IMG/VR virus record: IMGVR_UViG_3300044729_003129
Coordinates: 109,761-173,760 of that record
DNA from: a virus
Reading direction: 5' to 3' (one strand)
DNA: 64,000 nt
Below, one piece after another: positions 47,352 to 50,765 of the stretch. The notes beneath the pieces were generated by a model that did not search any database, was not told the DNA's origin, and saw only the letters and a program-made list of their open reading frames with translations. Numbering within the stretch: position 1 is the first letter of the stretch; each line of letters opens with the position of its first letter. A program made the translations under genes and the position numbers.

Positions 47352-47879
47352 ATGTCATCTTCAATAAATGATTTTAAATCCGCAATAATGCGAAATGGGG
47401 GCTTAGCGCGTCCAAATAGATTTTCAGTAACATTTGCTAGTTTACCGGGTTCATCATCTGTATCAAGGGATATTTCATTTTTATGTGAGTCTGTTAATAT
47501 ACCTGGAAAACAAATTACAACATTAGACTATGATATAGGCACTCGTCGTCCATTAAAAATACCAACTGGTTATATTGAAGATGATGTAACAATGACATTT
47601 ATTTCAACTAATAATAACGCCATTAAAAAGGCGATAGATGAATGGATGAAAAAAATAATAAACATTGATTCCTATCTACTCGCTAAAGATCACCAAACTT
47701 ACAAGACTGATATTACTATTACGCAGCTAAACGAAAATGACAAAGAAATTCAAAATGTTAAATTGCAAAACGCATATCCAATAACTTTGAATTCTATTGA
47801 ACTAGATAATAATGCTGAATCAACAATACAAAAAATATCTGTAGTATTTACGTATGATAAATTAGATATTAAGAAATAA
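47352..47879 (+). CDS. tail tube-like protein (gp19/gp54 family)
   Basis: The 175-residue protein begins MSSSINDFKSAIMRNGGLAR then PNRFSVTF and continues ISFLCESVNIPGKQITTLDY, VTMTFISTNNNAIKKAIDEW and NAYPITLNSIELDNNAESTI. This is the T4 gp19-family tail-tube pattern (RPNRF.V, a C..v.lPG segment, D and W in the insertion helix, YP..... at the end). Its length fits gp19 (163). Its position beside gp26 and gp29 fits gp54, which has the same fold and starts the tube. Whether it is the main tube subunit depends on a second copy outside this window. Confidence 0.8.
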   Translation: MSSSINDFKSAIMRNGGLARPNRFSVTFASLPGSSSVSRDISFLCESVNIPGKQITTLDYDIGTRRPLKIPTGYIEDDVTMTFISTNNNAIKKAIDEWMKKIINIDSYLLAKDHQTYKTDITITQLNENDKEIQNVKLQNAYPITLNSIELDNNAESTIQKISVVFTYDKLDIKK

Positions 47880-47903: not shown

Positions 47904-48614
47904 ATGCCATTACCAATCCTAGAATCCCCAAAATATGTATTGACTGTACCATCTACATCACAGTCAATTGAATATCGTCCTTTTCTTGTAAAGGAAGAAA
48001 AAATATTGCTGCTCGCACAGGAGTCAAACAGCTCATCAGAAATGATGTCCGCGATTAAAGACATTATACGAGCCTGTACATTCGGTGTCGTTGACCCAAA
48101 CGATTTGACTTCGTTTGACTTAGAGTATATTTTCTTAAAGTTACGAGCAAAGAGCGTAGGTGAAGTTAGCAATATCAAATGTAAGTGCGATCATTGTGAA
48201 ACTTACAACGAGGTGTCTGTTAATATTGATGATATTGAAGTAACGTGGCCAGTTAAAGAAATTAGCAACAAAATTATGTTAACTGATAAAATTGGTGTGG
48301 TTCTAAGACATATACGTGTAAATGATATGTCAACGATTATAAGCACATCTGAAGTTGATATGGACACAATAACAAATATGCTTATTGCTTCAATTGATTC
48401 AATCTTTGATGACAGTGGAGTGTATCCCTCAGCACAGTCGTCTCGCGAAGAGTTGCTAACATTTGTTAACAGCTTAAGCCGAGCTCAACTTAATAAAATT
48501 GAAGAGTATATATCAAACTCTCCTAAACTACAACATAGTGTAAAATTTAATTGTACTGGTTGTAAGACTGACAATGATATTACACTTGTAGGCACACAAG
48601 CTTTTTTCGAATAG
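47904..48614 (+). CDS. gp26: baseplate hub assembly protein gp26
   Basis: The 236-residue zero-frame product begins MPLPILESPKYVLTVPSTSQ then EYRPFLVKEEKILLLAQESN, the hallmark of the T4 gp26 baseplate protein family, followed by FDLEYIFLKLRAKSVGEVSN. Two cysteine clusters (CKCDHC near residue 93 and CTGC near residue 220) look like a zinc ribbon. The frame ends GTQAFFE-stop. The last codons contain the heptamer T TTT TTC at 48602-48608, and a -1 shift there extends the protein by 58 residues (next entry). It precedes the gp29 tape measure gene, as do G/GT tail chaperones. Confidence 0.9.
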   Translation: MPLPILESPKYVLTVPSTSQSIEYRPFLVKEEKILLLAQESNSSSEMMSAIKDIIRACTFGVVDPNDLTSFDLEYIFLKLRAKSVGEVSNIKCKCDHCETYNEVSVNIDDIEVTWPVKEISNKIMLTDKIGVVLRHIRVNDMSTIISTSEVDMDTITNMLIASIDSIFDDSGVYPSAQSSREELLTFVNSLSRAQLNKIEEYISNSPKLQHSVKFNCTGCKTDNDITLVGTQAFFE

Positions 48615-48722
48615 CCCTCTCGCATGAATCGTTGTCTAACTATTATCAAACAAATTTTGCATTAATGCAGCATCACAAATATAGTTTAACTGAATTAGAT
48701 ACAATGATACCATGGGAGAGGG
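48602..48722 (+). promoter_or_regulatory. probable programmed -1 ribosomal frameshift site
   Basis: Slippery heptamer T TTT TTC (48602-48608) lies in the correct phase of gp26. A six-base spacer GAATAG follows, which ends with the zero-frame stop. Then CCCTCTCGCATG (48615-48626) can pair with CATGGGAGAGGG (48711-48722): 11 of 12 positions, seven continuous pairs next to the spacer, loop of 84 bases. Slippery site, spacer and downstream stem match the standard requirements for -1 frameshifting. Confidence 0.75.
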
Positions 48723-48784
48723 AAATTTATATTGCAATGCTAATAAAACACATAAGAGAAGAAGAAGAAAAACGTAAAAAATGA
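48608..48784 (+). CDS. gp51: -1 frame extension of gp26 (gp51-like tail chaperone part)
   Basis: Open in the -1 frame relative to gp26, 58 codons to TGA 48782-48784. It reads RIALSHESLSNYYQTNFALM, then QHHKYSLTELDTMIPWEREI and YIAMLIKHI, and an acidic-basic helix. A short protein with SHESL..YY..NFAL.QHHKYSL.EL..M.PWER.IY is, from memory, what follows gp26 in marine T4-like phages and is labelled gp51 there. No ATG or GTG precedes the conserved SHESL part in this frame (the first is the ATG of ALMQHH), so translation must enter from gp26 by frameshift. Its stop overlaps the tape measure ATG as ATGA (48781-48784). Confidence 0.8.
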   Translation, partial: RIALSHESLSNYYQTNFALMQHHKYSLTELDTMIPWEREIYIAMLIKHIREEEEKRKK

Positions 48785-50493
48785 CCGCAGAATCGTCACT
48801 AGCCCAGGTTGTAAAAGAATTACAAAGTTCTAATTTGTCTCAAGATCTTATTCTTGATACAATCGATAACTATGATTTTACACTTGCATCAAATGTTGCT
48901 AAAGAAAATACGACAGATGTTCCTACTTTTTTAGATAAATTAGTAGGCATAGCAGGCGATTTAAAAGGCAAATTTGATGTATTAATACGATCTAATGTAG
49001 TGTTAGCAAAGCGATTAGAAGGCAACAAATTACAAGAGCGTGAAAATCGTGATGAATTGCTTGACGCACTTGGAAAGTTAAAACCAGAAAAGACTAAGAG
49101 TGGTGTTAAAACAACTAAATTTGAAATGCCAGGCGGAATATTTGGGGGATTGCTGTCTGTGGCTGCATTAATGGGTGGATTTGTAACAGGATTTATATCT
49201 CAGCTCACGTCTCCAATATTTGCTGCACTAAAAAATGCAAAACTATTTCAAAAAATATCTAGTGTTTTTTCTACAGTTAGCAAATTTTTTACTGGCATTG
49301 TATTAAGTTTAAAAAATTCTCCTTTATTTAAAGGAACATTTACTGTAATAGAAAAGATTGGCGGTCTCTTAAATAAATTTAAATCAAGTAAAATTTTTAT
49401 GCTACTTGGTAAAATCTTTTCAATATTTGGAAATTCACCAGTATTAAAGACTATAACAGCTACATCTGGAATAATAGGAAGCGCCTTTTCTGCTCTTACG
49501 GATATATTTGGCGGGATGTTTAGGTTTTTTAAGATTGGTTTGACGCTTGGAAGCAAATTTGCTGGTTTATTTAAATTTTTAGGCGGTCCATTTACTTTAG
49601 CACTCACTGGAATAATAAGTGGTATTATGGGTGCAATTGACGGCTTTAAGAAAGATGGATTAATCGGTGGATTAAAGGGGTTTTTAGTTGGTGCATTTGA
49701 TGGATTAATCGGAGGTCTGCTAGATCTTGTAAAAGATGGAATATCTTGGGTATCTGAAAAACTTGGATTTTCAGAATTTTCTAAATTTTTAGATAGTTTT
49801 TCCTTTACTGGTTTATATTCAAAGTATATAATTGATCCACTGTTTGGAATGTATGCTGAAATTGGTAAATTTATAGGTGAAATACCTATGATGGTTACTG
49901 ATTTCTTTACATCACTACCTGATAAAATTAGTGTATTTTTTACTTCGGCAATGGATTCATTAACAACTATTTCAGATGATATGAGTGAAGTTGTAAATAA
50001 TTTTAATAAGGCTGTATTACGAGCAGTATTACCAGATCCAAAGGCAAAAGGAGGAATGTCTTATTATTTAAAATTAGCAATACCAGATTCTTTATATGAG
50101 TATGCATACAGCAGTTCTCCAAAAGAAAAAGAATCAACTAATTCTACATCAGAAAAATTAGCAACCGCTGCAACGTCTTCTGAAAAAATATTAAAGGCTA
50201 CATCTACAAATAATTTTACCGAACTAAGCAAAACTGAAAAGGCAATGGCTGCAGGTTATGGTTCATGGGATGAGTATGCTGCTTCAGACTTTAAGTGGAA
50301 AGCAAACATCAAAGCAACACCATTAACAACTGGCAACACCCTAGCGACTGCCGGCAACGTTGCAAATATAGCACCAACGATAGTTGTTAATAACAATAAT
50401 GGCGGCAATACTAATAATATTAGTAGCAGCAATGTAAATAATAATATGCCACAAATGATGCCAATACTAACTGGCAGTGCAATGGGTTATTAA
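48781..50493 (+). CDS. gp29: tail tape measure protein gp29
   Basis: The 570-residue protein has the length of T4 gp29 (590) and the properties of a tape measure: a helical N-terminus (QVVKELQSSNLSQDLILDTI), Gly/Phe/Leu-rich hydrophobic segments from about residue 118 (GGIFGGLLSVAALMGGFVTG) to 320 (GLIGGLKGFLVGAFDGLIGG), and a polar Asn-rich C-terminus (IVVNNNNGGNTNNISSSNVN). It fixes tail length and may enter the host membrane. Translation is coupled to the gp26 frameshift product through ATGA. Its end overlaps the convergent thioredoxin-like gene by four bases. Confidence 0.82.
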   Translation: MTAESSLAQVVKELQSSNLSQDLILDTIDNYDFTLASNVAKENTTDVPTFLDKLVGIAGDLKGKFDVLIRSNVVLAKRLEGNKLQERENRDELLDALGKLKPEKTKSGVKTTKFEMPGGIFGGLLSVAALMGGFVTGFISQLTSPIFAALKNAKLFQKISSVFSTVSKFFTGIVLSLKNSPLFKGTFTVIEKIGGLLNKFKSSKIFMLLGKIFSIFGNSPVLKTITATSGIIGSAFSALTDIFGGMFRFFKIGLTLGSKFAGLFKFLGGPFTLALTGIISGIMGAIDGFKKDGLIGGLKGFLVGAFDGLIGGLLDLVKDGISWVSEKLGFSEFSKFLDSFSFTGLYSKYIIDPLFGMYAEIGKFIGEIPMMVTDFFTSLPDKISVFFTSAMDSLTTISDDMSEVVNNFNKAVLRAVLPDPKAKGGMSYYLKLAIPDSLYEYAYSSSPKEKESTNSTSEKLATAATSSEKILKATSTNNFTELSKTEKAMAAGYGSWDEYAASDFKWKANIKATPLTTGNTLATAGNVANIAPTIVVNNNNGGNTNNISSSNVNNNMPQMMPILTGSAMGY

Positions 50494-50765
50494 TCTGCAG
50501 TTCGATAATATACAATATTGTCAAACTCTTCAGGAGTTTTTACTCCTGGAAAACTATGCATAATTTCACCACGTATATTATAGCATATTGTGTGCGGTAT
50601 GCCATCTATTTTATATTCAAATATAAGCGGTATATTTTCTTCCTTGTCAATATCAATTATTTGCAAACTTGTAGGAGTGCGTTCACAATAGTCACGTAGT
50701 GTTTTTAGATGACGTAAACAATCAGTACAATTTAAGTATGTAAATACCTTTATTAGAAAGATCAT
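50490..50765 (-). CDS. thioredoxin/glutaredoxin-like protein
   Basis: The 91-residue protein has a thioredoxin-fold layout: first strand MIFLIKVFTYLNC, redox motif Cys13-Thr-Asp-Cys16, a second strand LQIIDIDKEE, and the cis-proline loop IDGIPHT (Pro57) followed by ICYNIRGEIMHSFPG. A third cysteine (Cys27) and Cys61 also occur. Phage glutaredoxins commonly supply electrons to ribonucleotide reductase, which is not in this window. It is convergent with the tape measure gene (4-base overlap), so the plus-strand transcript runs antisense through it. Confidence 0.75.
   Translation of the reverse strand: MIFLIKVFTYLNCTDCLRHLKTLRDYCERTPTSLQIIDIDKEENIPLIFEYKIDGIPHTICYNIRGEIMHSFPGVKTPEEFDNIVYYRTAD

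Follow-up and report, generated by a model that had tools for sequence, protein, structure and literature searches.

In the genome of a marine T4-like virus (IMG/VR record IMGVR_UViG_3300044729_003129, 173,760 bases), a gp26-like gene is followed by a gp51-like segment in the −1 reading frame, and we wondered how a domain placed in this way might be translated. A sequence-only reading of the window (the whole stretch of 64,000 nucleotides analyzed, positions 109,761 to 173,760 of the record) had proposed that a programmed −1 frameshift joins the two into counterparts of the G and GT tail assembly chaperones of long-tailed phages, with a long-range RNA stem as an unusual stimulator. Comparison with relatives supports the frameshift, through the heptamer, the frame relation and the homology, and also favors the stem as a candidate stimulator.

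Organization of the gp26–gp51 junction

The gp26-like gene is the only match to PF12322 in the whole virus record (Table 1). Its 3′ end reads GCT TTT TTC GAA TAG in the zero frame, and the −1 frame reads TTT TTT CGA ATA GCC CTC TCG CAT GAA .... The elements named in the sequence-only reading are all present: an in-phase T TTT TTC at the end of gp26 with the six bases that follow it and include the stop (48602-48614), two arms 84 bases apart that pair at 11 of 12 positions (the sole mismatch being G48622/G48715), and a −1 frame that stays open for 58 codons, its TGA overlapping the ATG of the next open reading frame (48781) as ATGA. The −1 frame was also said to have no ATG ahead of its conserved start, and in the window the earliest possible start is indeed a TTG at 48632, with no ATG, GTG or TTG before it. 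Translation of the C-terminal domain would on this arrangement take place only after a slip. Elsewhere in the window, a 91-residue open reading frame on the minus strand (50490-50765) carries a CxxC motif (NCTDCLRH) and looks glutaredoxin- or thioredoxin-like by eye.

Table 1. Features of the junction and its surroundings, numbered from the first base of the window
Feature	Position	Strand	Basis
gp19-like tail tube protein (context)	47352..47879	+	PF06841 E=9.6e-9; PHROG 45 E=2.3e-43
gp26-like gene, predicted short-form tail assembly chaperone (G / TAC-N counterpart), 236 aa	47904..48614	+	PF12322 T4_baseplate E=1.5e-56; PHROG 150 E=2e-60
Slippery heptamer T_TTT_TTC, in phase with gp26	48602..48608	+	Sequence; T_TTT_TT[C/T/A] in 207/208 distinct relatives
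Spacer of 6 nt, containing the zero-frame stop TAG (48612-48614)	48609..48614	+	Sequence
Long-range stem, 5′ arm CCCTCTCGCATG	48615..48626	+	11/12 pairs with 3′ arm; co-variation
Long-range stem, 3′ arm CATGGGAGAGGG, within the PWERE codons	48711..48722	+	Pairing; co-variation
−1 frame C-terminal domain (predicted T / TAC-C counterpart), FFRIALSHESL...KRKK, stop TGA 48782-48784	48602..48784	+	PHROG 634 E=1.8e-27; alignment with C terminus of T4-type gp51
Putative tape measure protein, 570 aa	48781..50493	+	Open reading frame, position, size

Besides its match to PHROG 634, a family annotated as 'baseplate hub assembly catalyst', the −1 segment also hits PHROG 150, the family of gp26, at the C-terminal end of that family (E = 6.8e-6), and it is the only copy of the gp51-like domain in the virus record. 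By tblastn, 542 phage records contain relatives of the segment; where records were compared, the match begins at the last matching base of gp26, that is, in the −1 frame. These comparisons mark the −1 segment as genuine coding sequence, beyond chance. Many database records annotate the gp51-like domain as a stand-alone catalyst or omit it.

The slippery site in relatives

Three scans of IMG/VR, together with isolates, yielded 208 distinct Kyanoviridae-type loci. Conservation of the heptamer at the gp26–gp51 junctions of relatives, which the sequence-only reading had called for, was found in 207 of them (TTTTTTC in 166, TTTTTTT in 24 and TTTTTTA in 17). The zero-frame amino acids at the heptamer vary, yet the heptamer is kept, and the codon preceding it ends in T in every case (AGT, GAT, AAT, GCT, TCT). 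The zero-frame stop lies 2–4 codons past the first TTT of the site in 194 loci and 10–11 codons past it in 14. The sole locus without the heptamer, L265, has its gp26 end deleted: the last ~45 gp26 codons and the slippery site are lost (about 1160-1205) and the downstream domain is intact, which may reflect a deletion or an assembly fault.

The −1 frame contains no ATG, GTG or TTG ahead of domain residue 9 in 108 of the 208 loci, and some loci have a −1 frame stop immediately 5′ of the heptamer. The expectation that relatives would lack an independent start stood for these 108 loci and failed for others, which have an ATG, and for several distant phages in which an overlapping TAATG or TGATG occurs besides the heptamer. 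An in-frame conserved heptamer and a conserved −1 region without a start of its own, two marks of a programmed −1 site, are both present here.

The heptamer extends to KVP40, phiM12 and phages of Rhizobium, Stenotrophomonas and Xanthomonas. Single-protein scans with KVP40-type, Rhizobium and Stenotrophomonas gp26 returned just 1–2 loci each. Among distant phages, T_TTT_TTC occurs in KVP40, F86, ORM_20, X1 and Moby, T_TTT_TTT in phiM12 and vB_OspM_OC, and T_TTT_TTG in Rhizobium N34; VH7D and Desulfovibrio 7757 share the slip site as well. In the GC-richer members of this group, the rest of gp26 favors TTC over TTT (TTT:TTC 1:11 in N34 and 2:11 in phiM12). The slippery run is one T shorter (GAT TTT TCG) in L109, which is 99% identical to phage Moby, through either a true mutation or a homopolymer misread in sequencing. 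At the gp26 end of three Ackermannviridae-type loci (L009, L117 and L118, from Se_AO1, TTM-TASP117 and JA15) the canonical heptamer is absent, and the domain lies in the −1 frame after ATT TTC ATT TAA, with an overlapping TAATG in JA15. In Ackermannviridae-type phages the domain may be reached by way of a different slip site or by re-initiation.

A long-range stem downstream of the heptamer

The 12-bp stem, with its one mismatch, closes an 84-nt loop and starts 6 nt past the heptamer. The usual distance from heptamer to structure is 5–9 nt (PMC7618472), and the stem, as predicted from the sequence, falls within it. The 132 nt after the heptamer fold with −32.2 kcal/mol (z = −3.3 against dinucleotide shuffles).

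The sequence-only reading had predicted that the arms would covary in relatives, and they do, with one mixed control. The subset of loci labeled as having the stem had been selected by pairing and was therefore left out of significance tests, for which sets chosen by protein similarity were used. In 79 loci picked by protein similarity alone, standard pairs fill 77% of stem cells as against at most 62% when the arms are slid, and none of 500 shuffles of the 3′ letters matched the observed pairing or covariation score. The mixed control is the stem slid by +2, which has a covariation score of 0.150 compared with 0.127 for the real stem but pairs far less. Cognate arms gave a duplex energy of −11.1 kcal/mol and swapped arms −8.9 ± 0.23 kcal/mol, with p < 1/5000 for 65 cluster representatives, and the advantage of cognate over swapped arms holds on wobble positions alone.

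Because a first covariation ranking that included gp26 upstream columns was swamped by misaligned columns, compensatory changes were counted over an ungapped segment along a tree built from gp26 for 205 loci, index 0 being the first T of the heptamer. Among 3,561 column pairs, 14/119 ranked first for compensatory events per change, with nine such events in both directions; pair 17/116 ranked 15th.

Local hairpins in other clades

Other clades have a local hairpin of different design that starts at about the same distance from the heptamer. The types are an 11-bp hairpin (P-SSM2 type), a 6-bp hairpin (P-HM2 type), an 8-bp hairpin (L038 type) and GCCTCT..AGAGGC (L056 type). Over 207 loci, folding was more stable than a synonymous-codon null (mean z −2.16). 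By the thresholds set, a strong structure of either kind, long-range stem or local hairpin, is missing from about 50 of 205 relatives, so a stimulator is not universal. For the distant phages, local folding 3′ of the heptamer gave z from +0.5 to −2.6, which does not stand out clearly from shuffles, and we therefore claim no stimulator there.

T4 gp26 and gp51 as a short and a long form

T4 gp26 and gp51 both match PF12322 and PHROG 150, and in alignment T4 gp51 also carries the domain that other phages have in the −1 frame. The two T4 proteins are paralogues, gp51 consisting of a gp26-like domain and the same C-terminal domain. T4 thus makes a short and a long form from two genes, which lie on opposite strands, and uses no frameshift; Vibrio phage TDDLMA has both forms as tandem genes. 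A short and a long form therefore recur, by way of frameshift or duplication, and their homology to T4 gp26 and gp51 extends to all of them through PF12322 and PHROG 150/634. The proposal that gp26 and gp51 are the G/GT counterpart gained comparative support, with one amendment: T4 gp51 is the whole long form and not a separate second protein. Vladimirov and colleagues reportedly counted T4 genes 26 and 51 among the chaperone pairs.

AlphaFold models of gp26 and a T4-type gp51 (pLDDT 93.8 and 91.6) had no significant fold match in the PDB; the HK97 chaperone 2ob9 appeared in the fold comparison only at E = 3.3. A sequence search of the PDB found no relative. In Citrobacter phage Moon (L012, 2647-4285), a joined gp27–gp28 carries the annotation 'GT-like fusion protein'; these genes are distinct from the gp26/gp51 pair.

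The downstream gene

The 570-residue protein encoded downstream is a putative tape measure protein, given its position, its size and the annotation of relatives, among them the phiM12 counterpart, annotated as 'similarity to phage tape measure proteins'. In four cyanophages, the downstream open reading frame (864, 933, 936 and 1565 aa) and the tail (140–170, 138, 129 and 418 nm) change in the same direction but not in proportion; with only four phages and a non-proportional trend, we do not count tail length as proof of a tape measure.

S-CREM2, with the 418-nm tail, has two large proteins with lysozyme/chitinase domains (1565 and 1456 aa) after gp26/gp51 (L281, 4484-13555), both reported in the virion. 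S-N03 has 933 + 722 aa and S-H34 has 936 + 735 aa, and S-CRM01 has the first protein only (864 aa). The second large gene may add tail length.

A proposed mechanism and its alternatives

Gene 26 would give the short chaperone form, in the role of lambda gpG (TAC-N). We infer that a minority of ribosomes slips by −1 at T_TTT_TTC before reaching the stop, TTT TTC re-pairing as TTT TTT; these ribosomes would bypass the stop and append the 58-residue gp51-like helical domain, giving the long form (the gpGT or TAC-NC role), a predicted fusion of ~34 kDa with the junction peptide AFFRIALSHESLSNYYQ. The 12-bp stem, its arms 84 nt apart, would pause the ribosome and set the ratio of the two forms. Lambda gpG binds to the tape measure protein, and recruitment of tail tube subunits falls to the T part of gpGT (PMC5009743). 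By analogy, the short and long forms would bind and coat the putative tape measure protein, the 570-residue product, and the C-terminal domain of the long form would bring in tube subunits (gp19).

Alternatively, the −1 domain might be a separate small protein ('gp51') produced by re-initiation or coupled initiation after the gp26 stop. Many records do annotate a separate gp51, with ATG or downstream starts, and TAATG or TGATG overlaps the gp26 stop in KVP40/VH7D, F86, N34, Moby and JA15. In the window, however, initiation at the first start, TTG 48632, would remove the conserved RIALSHE, and the 108 startless loci, like those with a −1 frame stop just before the heptamer, also argue against a separate protein. 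Such a protein would moreover leave unexplained both the invariant heptamer and the fusion of the domain to a gp26-like domain in T4 gp51, and we regard it as highly improbable. That RNA polymerase slips on the six-T run and adds a base, so that the frame changes in transcription, is harder still to credit: the six T are kept in 207 of 208 loci, as this would predict, but such a run is short for efficient transcriptional slippage, it is held in register with the zero-frame codons, and the RNA stem begins at a distance typical of ribosomal frameshifting.

A more serious question concerns the stem, which might act in mRNA stability, RNase III processing or control of tape measure translation while the heptamer alone drives the frameshift, as in lambda. 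The stem is not clear in all relatives, and the lambda-type G/GT account in a review mentions no such stem (PMC5009743). Against this, the stem starts 6 nt past the slip site, and other clades have in its place local hairpins that are built differently and begin almost equally far from that site. About 60 nt lie between the end of the 3′ arm and the tape measure start, so that the stem does not mask the ribosome-binding site of that gene. We consider another role for the stem unlikely, though deserving of some weight. Taken as a whole, the explanation in which gp26 is the short chaperone, a −1 slip at T_TTT_TTC gives the gp51-like long form and the long-range stem promotes the slip is very probably correct, on the comparative evidence of a conserved slip site, the frame relation, homology to T4 gp26/gp51 and co-variation of the arms.

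Discussion

A 2016 review described G–T frameshifting as conserved in long-tailed phages 'except T4' (PMC5009743). According to papers that cite it (PMC10885494, PMC12846349), the study of Vladimirov, Gautam & Davidson 2022 (Virology 566:9-15) identified T4-like tail assembly chaperones and their frameshift, with poly-T slippery sites in TAC-N genes and, in some of these phages, a short gene plus a longer, fused one. As far as these citing papers convey, the frameshift and chaperone part of our explanation is therefore already known: short and long forms, poly-T −1 sites in some phages and separate genes in others are common to both accounts. The citing text differs in being silent on a downstream stem, long-range pairing and co-variation.

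Like lambda G/GT (Levin 1993; Xu 2004, 2013; PMC5009743), the present system would pair a short form with a low-level −1 fusion directly upstream of the tape measure gene, but the protein family is unrelated by the searches made, and lambda G/GT is described without a stem (PMC5009743), whereas here T_TTT_TTC is accompanied by a covarying downstream stem. Distant RNA pairing is tied to −1 frameshifting in barley yellow dwarf virus as well (PMC7618472); there the contact is a pseudoknotting one over 4 kb in an RNA virus, whereas the element considered here is a simple stem, its loop 84 nt long, in the mRNA of a DNA phage. Rfam gave no match at the site, and the literature searched, which includes Vladimirov et al. 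2022 as known through citing papers, contained no description of a long-range stem. The long-range RNA stimulator appears to be new.

In cyanophages and in marine vibriophages, gp51 proteins were reported by Sullivan et al. 2010 to 'miss the first ~200 residues', which was left unexplained there (PMC3037559). These proteins would be short because the missing residues are gp26, joined to them by the frameshift. On balance we favor the view that the chaperone frameshift of marine T4-like phages is stimulated by an interchangeable RNA element, most commonly the 12-bp stem with its 84-nt loop and in several lineages a local hairpin, with the slip site unchanged; on this view no earlier long-range stimulator would have been described for the frameshift of a phage tail chaperone. 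With the stem and the hairpins, nature would offer a series of exchangeable stimulators for a single slip site, through which the contribution of RNA structure to −1 frameshifting in bacteria becomes directly testable.
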